Below are positions 28,670 to 55,548 of a stretch of DNA of 64,000 bases, piece after piece. Under the pieces are notes generated by a model. The model was not told where the DNA came from and did not search any database. It worked only from the letters and a program-made list of their open reading frames with translations. Numbering within the stretch: the first letter of the stretch is position 1; every line of letters starts with the position of its first letter. This stretch comes from Azotobacter salinestris (GTDB lineage Bacteria > Pseudomonadota > Gammaproteobacteria > Pseudomonadales > Pseudomonadaceae). The position numbers and the translations under genes are program-made. The stretch is taken from assembly GCF_009363155.1 (NCBI RefSeq), contig NZ_CP045302.1, positions 4,665,194 through 4,729,193 of the forward strand, read 5' to 3'.

Positions 28670-28950
28670 CGGGACGGGCAGCGCCACCCTGACCGTTTGC
28701 CGTGGGACAGGGGGAGGGCCGCCCCCGCCCACGACGCTCCGCCCAGCGCTTCCCGGACGGTCCGTGGCGCGCCGCGCCCGATGCGAGTCCTTCGCGTTTT
28801 GACAGCCACGGATAATGCTGCCATAGCTTTTGAGCGACGCCGGGCCAGCCTGCCGCCCGGCTCCGGGCATTCGCCGGCAGCGCCCGGCCGCAGGCGGGCG
28901 GCGGATCTCCCCCGCCAATCCATCCGAATCGCCGTGGGGAGGTTTCCCCG

Positions 28951-29289
28951 ATGCTCAGCTTCGATGAACTGCGCGGCTACCTCGTCTACATCCGCATCGC
29001 CCACCACATCCACGGGCGTATCCGCCTCAAGCTGGTGGCCGACTACGAGTCAATCGTCCGCCAGGGCCGGCAGGCCCGACAATTCAAATCTATTCTGGAT
29101 CGCACGCCGGGCGTGCACTCGATAAGGGTCAATCTGCTGGCTCGCTCGTGCTCCGTGGAATACGACCCGCAGGTGATTCCGGCCGAGGCCTGGAGCGATT
29201 TCCTGGCCGGCGTCGAATCGCCTGCCGCGGCGACTCTCGAGCAGATTCTGCGTGAGATCTACGGGGAGATCATGCATGAGAAACTATGA
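28951..29289 (+). CDS. HMA-like small protein with GRIR motif (Fez-type), head of the iron operon
   Basis: 112-aa protein with no signal peptide. Near the N-terminus is IRIAHHIHGRIRLKL (about residues 14-28), matching the R-x-x-H-x-x-x-G-R-I-R motif seen in ferrosome (Fez) proteins. What follows (TPGVHSIRVNLLARSCSVEY) looks like a ferredoxin-fold heavy-metal-associated domain of the kind named HMA_2, without the usual CxxC. The ribosome site GGGAGG is strong. The stop overlaps the ferritin-like gene by 14 bp. As the first gene of the run ending with feoABC and dps, it probably binds the iron-handling membrane system (inference). Confidence 0.72.
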   Translation: MLSFDELRGYLVYIRIAHHIHGRIRLKLVADYESIVRQGRQARQFKSILDRTPGVHSIRVNLLARSCSVEYDPQVIPAEAWSDFLAGVESPAAATLEQILREIYGEIMHEKL

Positions 29290-29971
29290 CGAGCCGATCC
29301 TGCGCAGCCAGCGGATCGATCCCGCCGCTCCCTTTCCCATCCTGCATCAGGCCGTGCGCATCGCCCTCTACGACGAATACGCCGCCCAGAGCTTCTATGC
29401 CGGAGTGGTCGAGGCGTTCGGGGCGCGTCAGCCCTTCGCCAGCATCCTGCGCTCCGAGGAGCGGCACATCGCCGCGCTCTCGAACCTGTGCCAGCGCTTC
29501 GGCATTCCCCGCCCGTTGAATCCCTTCCCGCAGGAAACCAGCGTCTCGCCCAGCTGGCTGGTCAACTGCGAGCGGGCGGTCGCCGGCGAGATCGCCAACA
29601 TCCGCCTGTACGACTATCTGCTCTCCCAGGCGGCCGAGCCCGAGGCGCGCCGGGTGTTCCAGAGCCTGCGGGCGGCCTCGCTGGAGCGGCACCTGCCGGC
29701 GTTCCGCCAGGCGGTGCTGGAGGCCATGGCGCAGGAGCGCTACCACGCGGACAGGGGCATCCCGCCGCAACAGGCCTACGTGCAGCACGGCCCGCTTTCC
29801 GACTTCATGGAGCGGGCGTTCGCCCATCTGGGCATCCAGGCCGGTCCGCTCGGCATTTTCAGCCCCCTCTTGCGTCACAGCCATCCCGCCATGCTGGCCG
29901 GCATGCTGGCAGGCGGGACGGGGGTCTATCTGCTGAAGAACCGGCCCGGTCGAAATCGAAAGGAGGACTGA
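29276..29971 (+). CDS. Ferritin-like four-helix protein
   Basis: 231-aa protein. Carboxylate/His ligands typical of diiron helix bundles occur as YDEYAAQSFYAGVVEAFG (Glu), RSEERHIAAL (ExxH) and, later, AVAGEIANIRLYDYLLS (Glu) and SLERHLPAF (ExxH). Two ExxH pairs plus the two Glu give a diiron centre as in ferritin-like and DUF2202 proteins. The C-terminal tail includes HPAMLAGMLAGGTGVYLL, a possible single membrane anchor. It overlaps the GRIR-motif gene by 14 bp. A ferroxidase or iron-storage function tethered to a membrane is the natural reading. Confidence 0.72.
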   Translation: MRNYDEPILRSQRIDPAAPFPILHQAVRIALYDEYAAQSFYAGVVEAFGARQPFASILRSEERHIAALSNLCQRFGIPRPLNPFPQETSVSPSWLVNCERAVAGEIANIRLYDYLLSQAAEPEARRVFQSLRAASLERHLPAFRQAVLEAMAQERYHADRGIPPQQAYVQHGPLSDFMERAFAHLGIQAGPLGIFSPLLRHSHPAMLAGMLAGGTGVYLLKNRPGRNRKED

Positions 29972-29972
29972 G

Positions 29973-30386
29973 ATGTTCCATATCATTCCCTTTGCCGTCG
30001 GCGTCGTGACGGGAGCCGCGTTGCTCAAGCTGTTCAAGAGCGAGAAGACCCAAGAGGGCCTGGACAAGGCCCAGGGCGGTCTGCGCGGCGCCACCGTGTC
30101 CAGTCTGGAGGCGATCGAGAACGCCTCGGCGCGGGCCCGCGCCCGTCTCGCCGGGAGGCAGGAGGCCGCACCCGGGCCCGAGCAGGCCGCCGCCGGCGAA
30201 CCCCCGCACCTGAACGAGGAGGAGGCGGCCACGGCGCGCGCCGCCGCCGAGCCGGTGACGGGCACGCCGGGCACCCAGGGCGCACAGGGCAGGCAGGGCG
30301 GAGCGGTCGGGGGCGAGCGCCATCTCTGGACCGCCAGCGAGTCCCTGGAAGGCACTGAGGGCAAGAGGGGGGATCGGGCACCATGA
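29973..30386 (+). CDS. Small membrane-anchored protein with long disordered tail
   Basis: 137-aa protein. The first 25 residues (MFHIIPFAVGVVTGAALLKLF) form one membrane helix with small-residue packing, as in YtxH-like proteins. The rest is low-complexity, Ala/Gly/Glu-rich and probably disordered, with GTPGTQGAQGRQGG near the end. It starts 1 bp after the ferritin-like gene and shares ATGA with the next. No enzymatic motif is visible; a structural or membrane-shaping role in the iron cluster is possible. Confidence 0.65.
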   Translation: MFHIIPFAVGVVTGAALLKLFKSEKTQEGLDKAQGGLRGATVSSLEAIENASARARARLAGRQEAAPGPEQAAAGEPPHLNEEEAATARAAAEPVTGTPGTQGAQGRQGGAVGGERHLWTASESLEGTEGKRGDRAP

Positions 30387-30745
30387 GATACCAGCCCCTC
30401 GGCCCCGGCCATGTGGCCTATCCGGCGTATCCGCTCTATCCGCCGCCGCTGCCCATGAGCACCGAATTCACCCGCGCCTTCGTCGCCACCGCCTGTCTCT
30501 CGGCGTTCCAGGGCGGCGCCCGCCCGCAGTCGCCGACCCAGCTGCGGAAGGTGCTGCGCCAGGCCCTGCAGGGCGGCACGGCATTCGCCGCCGGGTCGCG
30601 GGCCGCGACGGCCGTCCGCCAGGGCGACTATTCCAGCGCGCTGGTCGCCGCTGCACTCGGTGCCGGGGGCGTGCTGCTGCTCGAACAGCTGCTGCGCGAT
30701 GCGGCCCGGCTCGACAAGGAGAAACAGGATGGGCAAGAAGCATAA
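30383..30745 (+). CDS. Small membrane-associated protein of the iron cluster
   Basis: 120-aa protein of unknown family. The first 25 residues are rich in Pro and Tyr (YPAYPLYPPPLP). The C-terminal half has an Ala/Gly-rich hydrophobic stretch (SALVAAALGAGGVLLLEQLL), likely a membrane helix, followed by a charged tail ([16 protein letters not shown]). It overlaps its upstream neighbour by 4 bp and runs 17 bp into the next gene. It resembles the next product in having a hydrophobic helix placed after a low-complexity head. Confidence 0.62.
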   Translation: MRYQPLGPGHVAYPAYPLYPPPLPMSTEFTRAFVATACLSAFQGGARPQSPTQLRKVLRQALQGGTAFAAGSRAATAVRQGDYSSALVAAALGAGGVLLLEQLLRDAARLDKEKQDGQEA

Positions 30746-31253
30746 GTACAAGAAGCAGTACGCCGGCGGCGGACCCTATGGCATGGGTTATGGCGAAATG
30801 CCGCCCCAGGCGGCCGGGTCGCAGTACGGCGAGGGCGGCGGCTATGGGACGGCATATGGCGGTTACGGTGGGTATGGCGGCGGGCCGCAGCCGCAGCAAG
30901 GTTTCGATGGCATGCATGGCGGTACCTACCACCACCATGGCCACGGCTATGGATACGGCTACGGTGGCAATGGCGCGTTCGGCGGCGGCTTCCCCGGCGC
31001 CGGCCTGTTCGATGCCGGCCTGCTGCAGAACATGCCGGCCTTCCTGCGTTCGGGCAATGCCGAGCAGTTCCTGCTCGGCGCGGTGCTCGGCGCCACCGCG
31101 GCCTGGGTGCTGGCCGACGAGGAGCTGCGCGGCAAGCTGATCAAGGCCGGCATGAAGCTCTATGCCGGCGTCGCCGGCGGCTTCGAGGAGATGAAGGAGC
31201 AGATGGCCGACCTCAAGGCCGAGGTCGCCGCCGAGCGTCACGGAGAGGACTGA
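30729..31253 (+). CDS. Gly/Tyr/His-rich protein with C-terminal helix
   Basis: 174-aa protein. A basic start ([15 protein letters not shown]) leads into about 90 residues made mostly of Gly, Tyr and His ([28 protein letters not shown]). A hydrophobic helix, [20 protein letters not shown], and an amphipathic helical tail, [20 protein letters not shown], follow. Gly/Tyr-rich segments with His clusters suit mineral or metal contact, as in magnetosome-type proteins, but I know of no proven homologue. The stop overlaps the ATPase start (TGATG). Confidence 0.68.
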
Positions 31254-33421
31254 TGGACGGCGACTGGTTCGTCCGGCTGCAGCCGCTGCACCAAACGCTC
31301 GGTCGGGTGCGCTTTCGCTACCGCTGCCGGGCGGGCATGCCGCTCGATGCGCACAGCATCGAATACGAGGTCAGAACCCTCAAGGGCGTGCTGCAGGCGC
31401 GCGCCAATCCGGCGGCGCGCTCGCTGGTGGTGGAGTTCGAGCCGGGCGTCACCGACCCCGACAGCCTGGCCGCCGCCATTCTCGCCCTGTCGCCGTCGGG
31501 CCTGCCGCTGCCGGCCGCCAACCACCGGCACAGCGAGGCCGCGCGCCTGGGCGCGGTGGCCATGAGCGGCGCTACATTGCTGGCCACCTCCAGCCTGCAG
31601 CCGACCCTGCAGGCGCCGGTCGCCTTCGGCGCCGCCGTGCCGCTGCTCGGCGAAGCGGTCGACGACTTTCTCGAGAAGGGCATCACCTCCCATGTGCTGG
31701 AAGCTCTCGCCGTGGGCATCTCCATCGGCCGCAGCGATTTTCTCGCCGCCAATACCACTTCCTTTCTACTGGCGCTCGGCGAATACCTCGAGGAGTCCAT
31801 CGAGCGCCGCTCCGACGAGCTGCTCAAGCACCTGTTGCGCCCGCCGGGCGGCGAGGTGTGGGTCGAGCGCAACGGCGTCGAGACGCTGATCGATGCCGCC
31901 GAGGTGCAGGTCGGCGACAGCGTGATCGCCGCCACCGGCACGGTGATCCCGGTGGACGGCACCGTGCTCGGCGGCGAGGCGCTGGTCAACGAGGCGACCA
32001 TGACCGGCGAGAGCGTGCCGGTGGTACGCCGGCGCGGCGACCGGGTGCTGTCGGCGACCCTGATCGAGGAGGGGCGCCTGCGCATCTACGCCGAGCGGGT
32101 CGGCCGGCAGGCCGCCGCCGCGCGGATCGCCGAATTCGTCGAGCAGTCGCTCTCGGTGAAGAGCGAGACCCAGCTCGAGGCCGCGCGCCTGGCCGACCGC
32201 CTGGTGCCCATGGTGCTCGGCCTGGCCGGCGCCACCTGGCTGCTGACCGGCGACGGGCAGCGCGTCGCGGCGGTGCTGCAGGCCGACTATTCCTGTGCCT
32301 TGAAACTGGCCACGCCGGTGGCCTTCAAGGCGGCGATGTACCGCGCCGGACAGTCGGCGATCCTGATCAAGAGCGCCAAGGCCCTGGAGCGCCTGGCTCG
32401 CGCCGACACCTTCGTCTTCGACAAGACCGGCACCCTGACCACCGGCGTGCTCAAGGTGACCGATTCGATCGCCTTCAGCGCCGCCTATACCTCGGAGGAC
32501 CTGACCAACCTGGCCGCCTCGGTCGAGGAGCATTACGTCCATCCGGTCGCCGAGGCGGTGGTGGCGGCGGCCCACCGCCTCGAACATCCGCACCACTTCG
32601 ATCACCAGGCCGTGCAGTTCGTGGTCGCCCATGGCGTGGCCAGCGTGATCGACGGCAAGCGCGTCGTGGTCGGCTCGCGGCACTTCATCGAGGACGACGA
32701 GGGGATCTCCACCGCGGCCCATGCCGAGGTGATCGAGCGCCTGCACGGCGAAGGCAAGACCCTCCTCTACATCGGCTTCGGCGGCGAGCTGATCGGCGTC
32801 CTGGGGCTGACCGAGAGCGTGCGCGACAATGCCGCCCAAACCGTGGCGCGGCTGCGCGCGCTGGGCGTCCGGCGCATCCTGATGCTCACCGGCGACCAGC
32901 CGGAGCGCGCCCGTGCGCTGGCCGAGGAGTTGGGCCTCGACGAGTTTCGCGCCGGCCTGCTGCCGGAGCAGAAGGCCGAGGTGCTGCAGCAACTCGCCGC
33001 CGAGGGCGCGCGCATCGCCTTCGTCGGCGACGGGGTGAACGACGCGCCGGCGCTGACCGGCGCCCTGGTCGGCATCGCCATGCACCATGGCGCCGACATC
33101 GCCCGCCTGGCTTCCGACATCACCTTGCTGGAAGACGATTTTTCCCGGGTCGCCGACGCCCGTGCCCTGGCGCTGGCCACCCGGCGGCTGATCGACGGCA
33201 ACTTCAAGCTCACCGCCGGCCTCAACACCAGCATCCTCGGTGCGGCGGCCTTCGGCCTGCTGACCCCGGTGGCCGCCTCGATGCTGCACAACGGCAGCAC
33301 CATCGCCATCCTCCTGCGCGCGCTGGCCGGCGCCGGCCTGCCGCGCGAGCCCGGGACCCGGGTGAAACGCTGCGCCGCGAAGCGTTCCGATGCCGGACCC
33401 GCGACCGCCACAGGCCACTGA
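31253..33421 (+). CDS. P1B-type metal ATPase without CPC motif (FezB-like)
   Basis: 722-aa heavy-metal pump. The N-terminal HMA_2-like domain contains [14 protein letters not shown] (about residues 12-25), akin to the GRIR motif of its neighbours. Pump domain marks are the actuator loop MTGESVP, phosphorylation DKTGTLTTG, the P1B HP dipeptide in [10 protein letters not shown], and hinge [10 protein letters not shown]. The ion-site helix reads [10 protein letters not shown] in place of CPCALGLATP, so the usual Cys-Pro-Cys is missing. This fits the P1B-6 type known from ferrosome clusters. Direct coupling to feoAB suggests iron as the cargo. Confidence 0.85.
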
Positions 33422-33448
33422 CCGACATCCGAACAAGGAGGTTTTTCC

Positions 33449-33676
33449 ATGCTGCTCAGGGATCTTCACGTCGGCGAGCGCGCCAGGGTCCTCGGCTTCG
33501 CCGAGGGCGGCAGCGCCTACCGCCGCAAGCTGCTGTCGATGGGCCTCACGCCAGGTGCGGAAATCAGCATCACACGGGTGGCGCCGATGGGCGATCCGGT
33601 GGAAATCCGTGTGCGCGGCTTCGCCCTGTCGCTGCGCCGGGACGAGGCCGACGCGCTCTCGGTGGAGCGGCTATGA
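33449..33676 (+). CDS. feoA: Ferrous iron transport protein A
   Basis: 75-aa SH3-like cytosolic protein needed for FeoB activity. The sequence, [20 protein letters not shown] then [20 protein letters not shown], with the ending [20 protein letters not shown], is typical of FeoA. A strong AAGGAGG ribosome site precedes ATG 33449. The stop shares ATGA with feoB. It is 27 bp after the ATPase gene, so it belongs to the same transcript. Confidence 0.93.
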
Positions 33677-36012
33677 AGGACCTCTACCTGATCGCCCTGG
33701 TCGGCAATCCCAACTGCGGCAAGACCACCCTGTTCAACGCCCTGACCGGCTCGCACCAGCGGGTCGGCAACTGGCCGGGGGTGACGGTCGAGCGCAAGAG
33801 TGGCGAATACCTGTTTCGCGGGCTGCGCTTCGAGGTCGTGGACCTGCCGGGCACCTACTCGCTGGACGTGACCGACCAGGAGGTCTCCCTCGACGAGAAG
33901 CTCGCCCGCGACTATGTCCACGGCAGCGAGGCCGATCTGGTGATCAACATCGTCGACGCCGCCAACCTGGAGCGCAACCTCTACCTGACCAGCCAGCTCG
34001 TCGAGATGCGCGTGCCGCTGCTGGTGGTGCTCAACATGGTCGACGTGGCCGAGGCCCGGGGCATGACGCTGGATGCCAGGGCCCTGGTCGAGCGCCTGGG
34101 CTGCCCGGTGGTGCCGGTGGTCGCCTCCGAGGGCGAGGGCATCGAGAAGCTCAAGGCGGCCATCGCCGAGGCCGTCGCCGAACGCCGCGGCGCGACCGCC
34201 GAGGTCGCCTACGCGGCGGCGCTGGAGGAGGCGATCGCTGCCCTGGCACCGCAGCTGGCGGCGACCGCCGCCCATGCCGGCACCTCGACGCGCTGGCTGG
34301 CGGTGCGCCTGCTGGAGGGCGACGATCTCGCCCGGCAGACCGCCGGCAGTGCGCTGAGCGGGCAGGCGCAGGCGCTTGCCGCGAAGCTGGGCGAGGACCT
34401 CGACATCCAGGTGGCCGATGCCCGCTACGGGCTGGCCAACCGCCTGGCCGGCGAGGTGGTCGGCGTCGGCGGCCGGGTCGGGCGCGACCTCACCGAGCAC
34501 ATCGACCGCGTGGTGCTCAACCGCGCCCTGGGCATCCCGATCTTTCTGGCGATGATGTATCTGATGTTCATGCTCACCATCAACCTCGGCGGCGCCTTCA
34601 TCGATTTCTTCGAGCAGCTCGTCGGGGTGCTGCTGGTCGACGGTCTGGGTGCGCTGCTGGCCAGTCTCGGCGCGCCGGGCTGGCTGGTGCTGCTGCTGGC
34701 GCAGGGCGTCGGCGGCGGCCTGCGGGTGGTGGCGTCCTTCATTCCGATAATCGGCTTTCTGTTCCTGTCCCTGTCGCTGCTGGAGGATTCCGGCTACATG
34801 GCCCGGGCCGCCTTCGTGATGGACCGCTTCATGCGCTGGATCGGCCTGCCGGGCAAGTCCTTCGTGCCGCTCCTGGTCGGCTTCGGCTGCACGGTGCCGG
34901 CGATCATGGCGACCCGCACCCTGGAACACCGCCGCGACCGCCTGATGACCATCGCCATGGCGCACTTCATGTCCTGCGGCGCCCGCCTGCCGGTCTATGT
35001 GCTGCTGGCCGCGGCCTTCTTCCCCGAGGGTGCGCAGAACGTGGTGTTCGGCCTGTACCTGATCGGCATTGCGGTGGCGGTGCTGACCGGGCTGGTGCTG
35101 AAGAACACCCTGCTGCAGGGCGAGGCCACGCCCTTCATCATGGAGTTGCCGCCCTACCATGTGCCGACCGTGCGGGGCGTGCTGATCCATGCCTGGGACC
35201 GCCTGAAGCGCTTCATCTTTCGCGCCGGGCGGGTGATCGTGCCCATGGTACTGGTGGTGAACGTGCTCAATGCGCTGGGCACCGACGGCAGTTACAGCAA
35301 TGAGAACAGCGACCGATCGGTGCTGGCCGCCGTGGGCCGCGGCGTCGCACCGGCCTTCGCGCCGCTGGGGCTGGACGAGGACAACTGGCCGGCGGTGGTC
35401 GGCATCTTCACCGGCGTGCTGGCCAAGGAGGCGATAGTGGGCACCCTGAACGCCGCCTATGCGTCCCTGGCGGCAGGCTCGCAGGATGCCGGCGAGAGGT
35501 CACCCCTCGCCCTGGGCGCCGGCATCGCCGCCGCCTTCGCGACCATCCCCGCCAACCTCGCCGCGCTGTTCGACGGCTGGCTCAAGCTGCTGCCGGGCAG
35601 CACTTCCTGGCGCCGGGATGTCGCCGGCATCGAGGCGCAGAGCCAGAGCCTGCCGGAGGCGGATCAGGCCCGAACCAGCAGCGTCTTCGGTGCCATGGCG
35701 AGCCGCTTCGACGGGCGTGCCGGCGCCTTCGCCTACCTGCTGTTCATTCTGCTCTACATGCCCTGCACCTCGGCAACCGCGACGGTCTACCAGGAGTCCG
35801 GTCCGCGCTGGACGCTGTTCGTGGCGCTCTGGACCACCGGGCTGGCCTATGGCGTGTCGACCCTGTTCTACCAGGCGGCGACCCTGACCCGTCACCCGCT
35901 GTCTTCGCTGGTCTGGATCGGTGCGCTGCTGATGTTCTTCGGCCTGGTGCTGTACGCCATGCGCCGTTTCGCCGGGCGCGGCGCCCCGGCAGCTGTTCCC
36001 CAGCGAACCTGA
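33673..36012 (+). CDS. feoB: Ferrous iron transporter FeoB
   Basis: 779-aa inner-membrane Fe(II) transporter. The N-terminal G domain shows G1 GNPNCGKTT (about residues 11-19), the switch region [11 protein letters not shown]3 DLPGTYS and G4 NMVD. The membrane part has two Gate motifs ([40 protein letters not shown]) and Cys at [13 protein letters not shown] and [11 protein letters not shown]. The C-terminal helices end PAAVPQRT. The whole gene is intact. Its position after a P1B ATPase and ferritin-like genes is not the usual simple feoABC operon. Confidence 0.95.
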
Positions 36013-36023
36013 GGAGGAAGACC

Positions 36024-36251
36024 ATGATCCTGTCGGAGATCGGCCAGTACCTGCGACTGCACGGCCGGGCCAGCCTGCGCGATCTGGCGACGGCCACCGG
36101 CAGCACGCCGGAGGCGGTCGAGGCCATGCTCGCCACCCTGGAGCGCAAGGGCCGCGTGCGCCGCCTGCCCGCCGGCTCCACTTGTGGATCGTCCTGCTGC
36201 CAGTGTGATCCGGGCACGCTCGTGCTCTACGAGTGGACCGGCGACTCCTGA
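36024..36251 (+). CDS. feoC: FeoC-like winged-helix protein
   Basis: 75-aa protein. The first 50 residues form a winged helix (ILSEIGQYLRLHGRASLRDL, then EAVEAMLATLERKGRVRRL). A Cys cluster, STCGSSCCQCDPG (about residues 54-66), suits an Fe-S site as in FeoC. It starts 11 bp after feoB. FeoC proteins tune FeoB stability or sense iron/oxygen; the gene is typical in Feo operons of gammaproteobacteria. Confidence 0.85.
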   Translation: MILSEIGQYLRLHGRASLRDLATATGSTPEAVEAMLATLERKGRVRRLPAGSTCGSSCCQCDPGTLVLYEWTGDS

Positions 36252-36260
36252 GCGGCGCCG

Positions 36261-36818
36261 ATGAACACCCCCCCGACGCTGCTGGTGATCGGCATCCACC
36301 GCGAGGAACTGGCCTTCGGCCAGGCCGTGGCCGGAGGCATGGACCCGGCGCAGGTGGCGGTGCTGGAGATCCCGGAAGGGCTGTCCGGGCAGCCGCCGCC
36401 CGCCGCGCGGCGCTTCCAGTACGAGGCCCTGCACCGGGCACTGTACCTGCAGCTGCTGCCCCATGTGCTCAATCGTCACCGTTTGCTCATCGACCTGCAC
36501 AGCGGCTCCGATCCGCAGCTCGGCGCCGACCTGATCTGCGCCGACCCGGCACTGTGCGCCTGCCTGCGCACGGCGTTGGCCGGTGCCGAGCGCCTGACCG
36601 GCGCGGAGGTCCGTGTGGTGCCCCTCGGCGACGAGGGCGCCGACCTGCACGCGCGCACCATCATCCCACCGCAGGTGTGGCGCAACCCGGCCTTTCTCTA
36701 CCTGGGGCTGGAGATCTACCTGCCTGAGCTGGCGGATGCCTGGCCGGGCGCCCGCGAGCTGGCCCGCGAACTGATCGCCATCGCCGCCGGCTGCGTCGGG
36801 CGGCTCGATGGGCGCTGA
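36261..36818 (+). CDS. Aspartoacylase/AstE-like protein (putative hydrolase)
   Basis: 185-aa protein. The family metal motif G-x-H-x-x-E appears as GIHREE (about residues 11-16), and the second His as LIDLHSGSDPQ (about 76-86), the two Zn ligand sites of the succinylglutamate desuccinylase/aspartoacylase group. It is much shorter than AstE (about 330 aa) and lacks a clear C-terminal beta domain, so it may be a minimal amidohydrolase of unknown substrate. It lies 9 bp after feoC and overlaps the next gene by 11 bp. Confidence 0.6.
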   Translation: MNTPPTLLVIGIHREELAFGQAVAGGMDPAQVAVLEIPEGLSGQPPPAARRFQYEALHRALYLQLLPHVLNRHRLLIDLHSGSDPQLGADLICADPALCACLRTALAGAERLTGAEVRVVPLGDEGADLHARTIIPPQVWRNPAFLYLGLEIYLPELADAWPGARELARELIAIAAGCVGRLDGR

Positions 36819-37941
36819 GCGAGTGTCGCTGCTGTGCCGGCTGGTGCTGCTGTTTCTGCTCGCAGGCCCGCCTTCGGCGTTCGCCGAACCGCCAGCGGAC
36901 CACGCCGGGGAGCAGACGGTCGAGGTGTTCGTGCGCGACGGCTGTCCGCACTGCAGCGTGGCCAAGGCCTTTCTCGCCGAGCTGGCCGCCGAGCGCCCCG
37001 AGCTGCGCATCGTCCTGCGCCCGGTGGACCGCGATGCCGCGGCGCGCGAGGATCTCTTGCGGATTTCCCGCAAGGCCGGCGTCTGGCCGTCCGGCGTGCC
37101 GACCTTCGTGATCGGCGAACGGGTGCTGGTCGGCTTCGACGCTGCCGGGCGCACCAGCGCCGAGCTGGTCGCGCTGCTCGATCGGCAAGCGTTGCCTGTC
37201 GATTCGCTCGAAACCGGGCTGTTCGGCACCCTCAGCGTGGAGCGCCTGGGGCTGCTGCTGTTCACCCTGGCCCTCGGCCTGCTCGACGGCTTCAATCCCT
37301 GCGCGATGTGGCTGCTGCTGTTTCTTCTCTCGCTCCTGGTGCGCCTGCACGACCGCCGGCGCATGGCGCTGGTCGCCGGCACCTTCGTGCTGGCCGGCGG
37401 CGCGGTCTACTACGCCTTCCTGACCGCCTGGCTCAACCTGTTCCTGCTGGTCGGCGTCTCCGCGGCGCTGGCCCGGCTGCTCGGCGGCCTGGCCCTGCTG
37501 ATCGGTGCGCTCAATCTCCGGGACGGACTGCGGCCGGGCGGCGACTTCACGCTGTCGATACCGGCCGCGGCCAAGCCCGGGCTCTATGCCCGCCTGCGTG
37601 CCATCCTGCAGGCCGAGCGGCTGCTGCCGGCGCTCGCCGGCGTCGCCGTGCTGGCGCTGCTGGTGAACGTCGTCGAGCTGCTGTGCACCGCAGGCTTCCC
37701 GGCGCTCTACACGGCGATCCTCGCCCGCCAGGACCTGACTCCGGCCGCCCACTATGCCTACCTGGGCCTGTATGTGCTGGGCTAGCTGGCGGACGACCTG
37801 CTGATGGTGGCCAGTGCGCTGCTCGCCCTCGGCGGGCGGCAGCTGTAGGAACGGGCGGGGCGCTGGCTCAAGCGTGTGAGCGGGGCAGTCATGCTGGCTC
37901 TGGGGGCGGTCATGTTGCTGCGGCCGCAGTGGCTGGCGTAG
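36808..37941 (+). pseudogene. Glutaredoxin/DsbD-like membrane protein interrupted by two in-frame TAG codons
   Basis: The first segment (36808-37785, 325 aa) has a signal-like helix (LLCRLVLLFLLAGPPSAFAE), a periplasmic thioredoxin-like domain with CPHC (about residues 45-48) and cis-Pro SGVPTFVIGE, then several helices like DsbD/CcdA (LLDGFNPCAMWLLLFLLSLL). It meets TAG at 37783. The same frame continues sensibly: LADDLLMVASALLALGGRQL, TAG at 37846, then [20 protein letters not shown] and a final TAG at 37939. No frameshift has occurred, so two point mutations or readthrough explain it. Full length would be about 377 aa. Confidence 0.78.
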
Positions 37942-38173
37942 CGCCCGGCCATCTGCACGCTGCTGGCTCTTCGCCGTTCACCGACGGCGGCGTGGACCGT
38001 CACTTTCAGGGCTAACCTTTTTCTGCTGGGGGCGTCTTCCGCTTTTCCGGATGCTCCAGAAAGCCCGCTTCCCGCTCGGGAATGCCCGGTTCCTGGCAAG
38101 GCTGGCCGATTCGGTCGACAGCATGGCTTCGCCCGGGCATCAGGAAGGTCGTTTCTTCGAGAGGAGTGTTCCC

Positions 38174-38668
38174 ATGGAAAACCGCAAAGCCAAGCTTCCC
38201 GCCATCGATATCGGCATCGAGGCCGCGGATCGCGAGCAGATCGCCAACGGCCTGTCGGCACTGCTCGCCGACAGCTTCGCGCTCTATCTGATGACCCACA
38301 ACTTTCACTGGAACGTGACCGGCCCGCAGTTCAATACACTGCACCAGATGTTCATGACCCAGTACACCGAGCAATGGGATGCCCTCGACCTGATCGCCGA
38401 GCGCATCCGCGCGCTGGGCTTTCCGGCGCCGGGCACCTATGCGGAATTCGCCAGACTGGCTTCCATCGAGGAGGTGAAGGGGGTGCCGAAGGCGAGCGAG
38501 ATGGTCCGTCATCTGGTCGCCGCCCAGGAAGCGACCGCCCGCACCGCCCGCAAGCTCTTCCCGGTGGTCGAGAAGGCCGGCGACCAGCCGACGGCCGATC
38601 TGCTCACCCAGCGGCTGGAGGTGCACGAGAAGACCGCCTGGATGCTGCGCAGTCTTCTGGAGGAGTAG
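38174..38668 (+). CDS. dps: Dps-family DNA-binding ferritin
   Basis: 164-aa dodecameric mini-ferritin that stores iron and shields DNA from peroxide. Ferroxidase ligands are visible in [15 protein letters not shown] (His, about residues 39-53) and [18 protein letters not shown] (Asp/Glu). The start [20 protein letters not shown] is preceded by GAGGAGTG. It lies 230 bp downstream of the interrupted redox gene, and so may have its own promoter. Together with the ferritin-like protein it supplies iron-oxidising capacity to this locus. Confidence 0.93.
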
Positions 38669-38696
38669 ACCATGCGCGGAGCGTGGCCTGGGATGC

Positions 38697-39125
38697 TCAG
38701 CGCACCAGCGAGCGCCGATGCACGCCCAGGTGCACGCCCAGGCAGGCCACGAACAGGCCGCCGGTGACGGCATGCGCGCCTTTCTTGCCGGCCGCGGCCA
38801 GCGCCAGCGAGGCGGCCAGGCTGCCCAGCATGCCGAGCTTGGCGCCGCGGTTGATCTGCATCTTCAGCGAGCGCCGGCGCGGCGCGTGGGGCCGGGCCAG
38901 TTCGGCGTCGATGATCGAGTCGACCTTCGCCTCCAGCGCCTCGACCGCGGTCCGCGCGGCATCGAAGTGCAGGACGAGGCTGCCGGCACGGGCGTTGGGC
39001 TGCAGGCTGTCGACGCCTTCGAGGCCGGCCAGGGCCTCCTCAATCCGGGCCAGGCGCGCCCGGTCCCGCAGCACTCGGTCACGGATGCGGATGCGCCCGG
39101 GCAGCGCGGAAACGATACGACTCAT
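38697..39125 (-). CDS. Second GRIR-motif HMA-like protein with membrane helix (Fez-type)
   Basis: 142-aa protein. It opens MSRIVSALPGRIRIRDRVLR, the GRIR motif again; then an HMA-like ferredoxin fold (LEGVDSLQPNARAGSLVLHF) and a C-terminal hydrophobic region (LGMLGSLAASLALAAAGKKG ... GGLFVACLGVHLGVH), one or two helices. It faces the iron operon from the opposite strand and ends only 28 bp from dps. A Fur-box-like sequence lies about 120 bp upstream. This links it to iron control and to the 28951-38668 operon. Confidence 0.7.
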   Translation of the reverse strand: MSRIVSALPGRIRIRDRVLRDRARLARIEEALAGLEGVDSLQPNARAGSLVLHFDAARTAVEALEAKVDSIIDAELARPHAPRRRSLKMQINRGAKLGMLGSLAASLALAAAGKKGAHAVTGGLFVACLGVHLGVHRRSLVR

Positions 39126-39243
39126 GGGTGATTCATCCTGTACGGCAGATGAGCGACTCTCCGCCAGTCATGGCTCGGCATGGCTGTGCGCAGGACGGGA
39201 AGGGGAGTCGGCATCAACGGGGTGGGTGCGAGAATTGGCAACT

Positions 39244-39262
39244 GATAATTATACGCATTTGG
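39244..39262. promoter_or_regulatory. Fur-box-like operator
   Basis: GATAATTATACGCATTTGG matches 13 of 19 positions of the consensus GATAATGATAATCATTATC, including both GATAAT and CATT cores. It lies in the only AT-rich patch upstream of the GRIR-motif gene at 39125, so iron-repressed expression is likely. Confidence 0.5.

Positions 39263-52833: not shown

Positions 52834-55548
<2,715 letters not shown>

Follow-up and report, generated by a model that had tools for sequence, protein, structure and literature searches.

The stretch of DNA analyzed here, 64,000 nucleotides of the Azotobacter salinestris genome (contig NZ_CP045302.1, positions 4,665,194 to 4,729,193 of the forward strand; the window in what follows), contains a gene cluster that is probably a ferrosome-type (fez-like) operon of Azotobacter. 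According to coordinates and translations, six tightly coupled genes on the plus strand (28951-33421) encode, in this order, a small HMA_2 protein (A), a ferritin-like protein (FTN), three small proteins (C, D, and E), and a P1B ATPase, and feoABC follows directly. Behind feoC come genes for a 185-aa protein, a glutaredoxin-domain membrane protein, and Dps, and then, on the opposite strand, the gene for a second HMA_2 protein (H), which is preceded by a Fur-like box. From 28951 to 37785, the genes overlap or are separated by gaps of at most 27 bp. An earlier note, made from the letters of this DNA, had proposed a ferrosome locus in a pseudomonad-like host. A fez-type cluster with HMA_2 proteins and an ATPase without a CPC motif is indeed present in this member of the Pseudomonadaceae, but the organelle itself lies beyond what a sequence can tell. 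All the genes named at that time were found at their positions, but two genes that separate feoC from dps, at 36261-36818 and 36808-37785, had been missed. The tight gene run is real and not due to chance, as a gene-neighborhood comparison showed that the order A-FTN-C-D-E-ATPase is kept in three other Azotobacter genomes (A. vinelandii, A. chroococcum, and A. beijerinckii) and in Azomonas macrocytogenes.

The ATPase (31253-33421, plus strand, 722 aa; TIGR01525, 3.3e-137) has an HMA_2-like N terminus and can be considered FezB-like. As had been noticed before, it lacks CPC in transmembrane helix 4 (TM4), the mark of the P1B-1 and P1B-2 (Cu, Zn) ATPases, and reads DYSCALK instead. Of 93 cluster ATPases, 87 showed the corresponding stretch, [YF][SA]C[AGS][LI]K, and the other six gave no match to the pattern, whereas all seven other P1B ATPases taken from the relatives have CPC. 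When 89 cluster ATPases were placed in a tree with these seven CPC-type enzymes (quick LG+G4 search, long branches flagged), the two groups were split by a branch with a Shimodaira-Hasegawa-like approximate likelihood ratio (SH-aLRT) support of 100, which sets the window ATPase apart from the CPC pumps. Both the motif and the branch, in this tree of cluster and CPC-type sequences, suggest that it is P1B-6-like. The substrate of P1B-6 ATPases is listed as Fe(II) (PMC7558416).

The second hallmark of the cluster is a small HMA_2 protein with a GRIR motif beside the ATPase gene, and the window has two such proteins, A and H. Protein A (28951-29289, plus strand, 112 aa), a FezA-like candidate, matches Pfam HMA_2 and carries RIAHHIHGRIR, which corresponds exactly to R-x-x-H-x-x-x-G-R-I-R; we take a GRIR-motif HMA_2 protein to be a defining feature of Fez systems. 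The earlier note gave this motif for the HMA-like proteins of ferrosome clusters, and in the window it is exact only in A: H has a serine in place of the histidine (RIVSALPGRIR), and the ATPase reads H-x-x-x-G-R-V-R. No hydrophobic segment above the threshold was found in A by hydropathy analysis, and the CxxC of copper chaperones was not found in the sequences of the HMA_2 proteins. A is present in most of the related clusters that we mapped. The genes between FTN and the ATPase encode small proteins with hydrophobic helices. C (29973-30386, plus strand, 137 aa) has a single helix of this kind at its N terminus (hydropathy 1.78 at residue 3) and D (30383-30745, plus strand, 120 aa) has one at its C terminus (1.88 at residue 86); both slots are kept in related clusters. 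E (30729-31253, plus strand, 174 aa) consists of a Gly/Tyr-rich N-terminal half (its first 100 residues contain 37 Gly and 13 Tyr), a hydrophobic helix, and a YtxH/DUF5132-like C terminus, with weak Pfam matches to DUF5132 (0.0031) and YtxH (0.024); its homologues in Azospirillum and Arcobacter are annotated "YtxH domain-containing." C, D, and E had been thought of as extra and as possible, previously unnamed organelle components. Related clusters ordinarily contain them too, and they are probably the counterparts of the genes left over in the known six-gene fez operons.

The opposed protein H (38697-39125, minus strand, 142 aa) may be the FezC of this system. Its predicted model (predicted local distance difference test score [pLDDT] 91) consists of an HMA-like domain followed by a hairpin of two long helices, and its matches in the PDB are mostly HMA domains, none at an E value of 0.001 or lower. 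HMA_2 was detected at an E value of at most 0.1 in all 47 H-type proteins, and the window H has this domain at its N terminus. DUF4405 was detected at the same threshold in 35 of the 47 (best, 9.3e-4). Invariant in the alignment of these 47 proteins are G10, R11, R13, H118, G122, and H132, thus including two histidines. The FezC of D. magneticus is cited as a DUF4405 homologue, and recombinant FezC from Desulfurispirillum indicum binds heme and was modeled as a dimer (Huang et al., PMC10979944). Because of the DUF4405 similarity, the two invariant histidines, and this precedent of a heme-binding FezC, we consider H, with moderate confidence, the best candidate for a FezC-type cytochrome.

Comparison with known systems and with relatives supports the assignment. 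Six-gene fez operons, with a P1B-6-type ATPase and its fez partners in one operon, were reportedly found in Rhodopseudomonas palustris and Shewanella putrefaciens by Grant et al. in 2022. Set beside these by description, the window likewise has six core genes, counting the opposed H, but differs in that FTN follows A, H lies downstream on the other strand, and feoABC stands directly behind the ATPase gene. A scan of named genomes with a segment of the window ATPase gave 198 relatives in 279 candidate stretches; the best 80 of the 198 were kept, and all counts lean toward close relatives. Over a stretch of 77 residues, the window ATPase shares 99% identity with that of A. vinelandii CA and 94% with that of A. 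chroococcum. Clusters were mapped by iterative profile searches in 95 sequences, the window plus 94 loci that include second fetches of four genomes. The six-gene cluster H, A, C, D, E, and ATPase was seen in Azospirillum, Magnetospirillum, Rhodoblastus, and Aeromonas, with the C and D labels swapped in a few, and agrees with the six fez genes of R. palustris (PMC12016538). The Aromatoleum cluster has the same six genes and, in addition, FTN between A and C. The window has H, A, C, D, E, the ATPase gene, and FTN and therefore holds the whole usual set plus one. The position of H on the opposite strand behind the operon is shared by Azotobacter, several Thauera, and two Pseudomonas. FTN is absent from the more distant clusters; A, E-like, and ATPase genes are present in L038, L040, L042, L048, L153, and L154, and no A gene was seen in L047 and L156. 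The fezABC genes of D. magneticus (PMC10979944) also combine a P1B ATPase with a DUF4405-like partner, but the window has more genes. The Arcobacter plasmids CP129951 and CP134847 carry, in the same order, an A-like hypothetical protein, a DUF2202 protein, two hypothetical proteins, a YtxH protein, and a P-type ATPase. In contrast to the window, these clusters are plasmid-borne, their ATPase is only 45 to 50% identical over the aligned part, and their FTN copy lacks the C-terminal Glu/His set described below. The ATPase region of CP134847 (L046, 5696-7809) is annotated as a hypothetical protein plus a P-type ATPase, and that of CP129951 is one open reading frame. Fez-like clusters are plasmid-borne in L044, L045, L046, and L047, including pORIO2 of Cereibacter azotoformans, which is typed as conjugative by PLSDB; TonB-dependent receptor and FecR genes lie nearby.

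A metal-transporting P1B ATPase with helpers could also serve simpler purposes. We consider it very unlikely that the locus is an ordinary copper or zinc resistance cluster. NCBIfam does call the ATPase a heavy metal translocating P-type ATPase, and the general cadmium-family model was passed (341.8 versus a cut-off of 313.5 bits), but for the window ATPase the copper model TIGR01511 stayed under its cut-off (307.7 versus 397), as did the CopA and ZntA equivalogs, and the absence of CPC, the fully supported separate branch, the adjacent feoABC, and HMA_2 proteins without CxxC all argue against this explanation. A plain efflux pump for Fe(II) (or Ni/Co) in the cell membrane, which together with its helpers would guard the cell against iron overload after Feo import and would form no organelle, deserves more credit but is still unlikely. 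P1B ATPases are mostly exporters, the ATPase would suffice by itself to move metal out of the cytoplasm, and feo, the fez-like genes, and in some Azotobacter dps are adjacent. However, a six-gene set with three small helix proteins, kept across many families, exceeds the needs of a lone exporter, and ferrosome formation is reported for the six-gene fez operon of R. palustris (PMC12016538).

Several observations weigh against the ferrosome-type operon itself. The likeness to Fez is one of domains, motif, and gene order, with alignments made among the clusters themselves. The Pfam HMA_2 matches are borderline: A falls just under the cut-off of 30 (29.9 bits, E value 6.3e-7), H also stays just under it (28.2 bits, E value 2e-6), and the N terminus of the ATPase matches weakly (E value 0.012), although GRVR is present. 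Window H reaches only an E value of 0.034 with DUF4405 (15.1 bits; cut-off, 26.7), and in the more distant clusters the H-type proteins do not have the two-His hairpin. No Fur-like box was seen before the operon in the four Azotobacter loci, and the operon of A. beijerinckii has neither feo nor dps alongside (L015 and L051). Azotobacter is, moreover, an obligate aerobe. The sources consulted describe ferrosome makers as strict or facultative anaerobes, or the organelle as serving anaerobiosis.

The extra gene of this cluster is FTN (29276-29971, plus strand, 231 aa), which encodes a ferritin-like protein with a C-terminal extension. Pfam matches were weak and under the cut-offs (DUF2202, 0.0012; COQ7, 0.0028), DUF2202 was detected at an E value of at most 0.1 in 18 of 36 members, and a profile search of the PDB with the FTN alignment gave nothing convincing (the best match, at an E value of 0.029, was a bacterioferritin). 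The AlphaFold model (pLDDT 81, with residues 185 to 231 below 50) has a four-helix ferritin-like fold. Only two structure matches in the PDB reach an E value of 0.001, both to the hypothetical protein MJ0754, and these are followed by ferritins, bacterioferritins, Dps-like proteins, yciE, and symerythrin (E values, 0.002 to 0.025; probability, 0.99 to 1.00). FTN thus resembles DUF2202 and other ferritin-like four-helix proteins in its predicted fold and differs from them in its extension, which in Pseudomonadota carries a conserved E/H/H/E set, and in a diiron site that is often incomplete. We assigned the diiron ligands E34, E61, H64, E105, and H139 from the alignment, which has 36 rows, all from Pseudomonadota, with L113, the two Arcobacter plasmid copies, and the duplicate fetches L013-L016 set aside. 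All five ligands are found in the window FTN, in the two Arcobacter copies, and in 19 of the 36 Pseudomonadota copies. A. vinelandii lacks E61, A. beijerinckii E34 and E61, and one Aromatoleum/Azoarcus group several of them. The C-terminal residues E154, H157, H171, and E179, in contrast, are kept in 36/36 copies and in L113 as well, and D176 is kept in 33/36. This set is not a universal feature of FTN, as the Arcobacter copies, a near-identical pair and the most distant of all, read T/H/N/E at these positions, so lacking E154 and H171. Going by these distant copies, which have the full ligand set but not the C-terminal one, the diiron site may have come first, and the Glu/His residues may be particular to the Pseudomonadota.

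The earlier note had counted FTN as a ferroxidase. The fold and the complete ligands of the window copy and of the two Arcobacter copies support this claim, but the incomplete site in nearly half of the Pseudomonadota copies, including that of A. vinelandii, does not. It is conceivable, if doubtful, that FTN acts as a genuine diiron ferroxidase or as a subunit for storage, possibly in a cage, and that it works in the pathway or is merely part of the same operon; this would be compatible with a ferrosome-type operon. The distribution of the ligands, with the most distant copies complete, is in favor of such a function. Against it stand the better conservation of the C-terminal set, a Glu at helix-4 position 137 in only 12 of 36 copies, and the six FTN homologues found outside fez-like clusters, which match the ferritin domain alone (residues 21 to 148) and end soon after it, without the extension. 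FTN may be an accessory iron-binding or scaffold part, ferroxidase or not. That it is anchored in the membrane by its C-terminal helix is a guess, because this helix is weakly hydrophobic and modeled at low confidence. The FTN gene occurs in 39 of the 89 tree rows, in the maps between A and C, and by this distribution it is a recurrent accessory, the extra gene beyond the usual cluster set. A single origin of FTN on the ATPase tree found no support; the rough number of changes was nine, or seven when the 10 rows lacking a detected A were left out. FTN homologues were found in 7 of 369 Gammaproteobacteria genomes, including that of the window. Around the six homologues outside fez-like clusters (regions of 8 to 20 kb), no homologues of A, C, D, or E were found at an E value of at most 0.001; three of these regions have generic P-type ATPases (24 to 29% identity over the longer matches), and one, L024, has a relative of the glutaredoxin membrane protein.

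From the gene content, gene order, conservation, clade, and predicted folds described here, we infer an organelle, its substrate, and all biochemical roles, as follows. FeoB would import Fe(II) into the cytoplasm, and the P1B-6-like ATPase, residing in a small internal membrane, would pump it into a membrane-bounded compartment, as its clade and the P1B-6 substrate suggest. The HMA_2 domains of A, of H, and of the ATPase N terminus may dock or pass on iron without the CxxC of copper chaperones, and the small helix proteins C, D, and E may shape or coat the compartment. H, as a dimeric heme-binding cytochrome of the FezC type, might alter the redox state of the stored iron, a role that would fit its DUF4405 similarity and two invariant histidines. 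FTN would be an added iron-handling or scaffold subunit. The iron store could feed nitrogenase in this obligately aerobic nitrogen fixer.

The possible connection with nitrogen fixation came from genome counts. nifH over its curated cut-off was present in 35 of 48 cluster-bearing named genomes (those of the best 80 relatives that are not labeled as metagenome-assembled genomes, picked by similarity to the Azotobacter protein) and in 38 of 398 genomes of an even phylum sample. Within the phylum sample, 4 of 8 cluster-bearing genomes, including that of the window, and 34 of 390 others had nifH (Fisher P value of 0.004); one more cluster-bearing genome has a partial nifH match that stays below the cut-off. 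Both comparisons are uncorrected for phylogeny, and a tie between fez-like clusters and diazotrophs is a lead. Diazotrophy as the reason for FTN was rejected, as nifH was found in 15 of 26 genomes with FTN and in 20 of 22 without it, the opposite direction.

The Fur-like box 5' of H that had been noticed before is present (39244-39262, minus strand); it matches 13 of 19 positions of a Fur consensus, a score that 3 of 200 mononucleotide shuffles also attained, and the same 13/19 was found in A. vinelandii, A. chroococcum, and A. beijerinckii. Upstream of the operon in the window, the best Fur-like (9/19) and FNR-like (7/10) scores were not above those of shuffles. Fur control of ferrosome genes has been reported for C. 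difficile (PMC12574912), and the fez genes of R. palustris strains dropped along with iron genes at low light (PMC6879726). A perfect FNR-type box (TTGAY-N4-RTCAA) lies 5' of 10 of 76 clusters (L057, L062, L063, L071, L073, L085, L089, L090, L099, and L124), with 0.05 expected from shuffles, and boxes with at least 9 of 10 positions precede 20 of 76, with about 1.4 expected. In the four Azotobacter loci, the FNR-type match covers 7 or 8 of 10 positions. The upstream sequence does contain a possible sigma70-type promoter, TTGACA-N17-CATAGC (28799-28827, plus strand), a block common to the window, A. vinelandii, and A. chroococcum, which we regard as a lead only. That the Azotobacter operon is freed from oxygen control, which would fit an obligate aerobe, is likewise a lead from these promoter regions.

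Taken further, Azotobacter, an obligate aerobe, might build ferrosomes as an iron reservoir for nitrogenase with a new ferritin-like component, whose best-kept site in Pseudomonadota is the C-terminal Glu/His set and not the diiron center, and ferrosome operons would be a trait of nitrogen fixers, switched by FNR-type regulators in facultative species and released from this switch in Azotobacter. This broader scenario we put forward only tentatively, as one that may well prove wrong. Ferrosome operons are already known; the ferritin-like component, the junction with Feo, and the link to diazotrophs appear to be new. A literature term search, which did not extend to the primary ferrosome papers, found no publication in which ferrosomes and Azotobacter are both mentioned; ferrosome and nitrogen-fixation terms co-occur in a review on magnetotactic bacteria. 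For A. vinelandii, a 2023 review of iron homeostasis counts two feo operons besides one ferritin, two bacterioferritins, and one mini-ferritin; the parts of this review returned by a term search cover ABC, Feo, and ferritin systems and no ferrosome-type system (PMC10669500). A. vinelandii is a standard nitrogenase organism, and nitrogen fixation is iron demanding; the cluster suggests a testable iron reservoir in a classic model of this process. If the operon builds ferrosomes, an organelle described so far mainly from anaerobes and facultative species could be studied by genetics in an aerobe, and the ferritin-like module would offer a handle on iron deposition inside it.

The genes downstream of the ATPase gene are feoA (33449-33676), feoB (33673-36012), the start of which overlaps the feoA stop, and feoC (36024-36251; Pfam FeoC, 4.5e-21), all on the plus strand. 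The join to Feo import that the earlier note pointed out recurs elsewhere. Among 60 loci with enough flank, 31 with FTN and 29 without, feoB is within 6 kb in 24, namely 16/31 with FTN versus 8/29 without. feoB is a conserved neighbor. Thauera, Pseudomonas, and Azomonas agilis have feoA close to the ATPase gene, and in two genomes, L153 and L154 (order of Rhodoblastus), feoAB runs divergently from the cluster. The dps gene is present in the window as stated (7e-21, although under the NCBIfam cut-off), but it had to be rejected as a part of the module, as it adjoins only 2 of the 60 loci, both Azotobacter. Since the A. beijerinckii operon stands without either, feo and dps are neighbors and not core genes.

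The gene for the unannotated 185-aa protein (36261-36818, plus strand) lies no more than 6 kb from the ATPase gene in 14/31 clusters with FTN versus 1/29 without. HxxE, DLH, and a late Glu are invariant in an alignment of 14 sequences, and the protein resembles a cut-down AstE/AspA zinc hydrolase. Pfam AstE_AspA_cat gave one weak match (0.062) among the 14 sequences, and a profile search against the PDB with their alignment gave no match. The frame of the glutaredoxin-domain membrane protein (36808-37785) is shorter than that in A. chroococcum L050 (336 versus 375 codons from stop to stop), and this gene was not found beside the A. vinelandii operon (L014). Part of another P-type ATPase lies elsewhere in the window, at about 53317-53724 on the minus strand in a frame of 992 codons, and matches the fez-like ATPase weakly (E value 1.2e-10).

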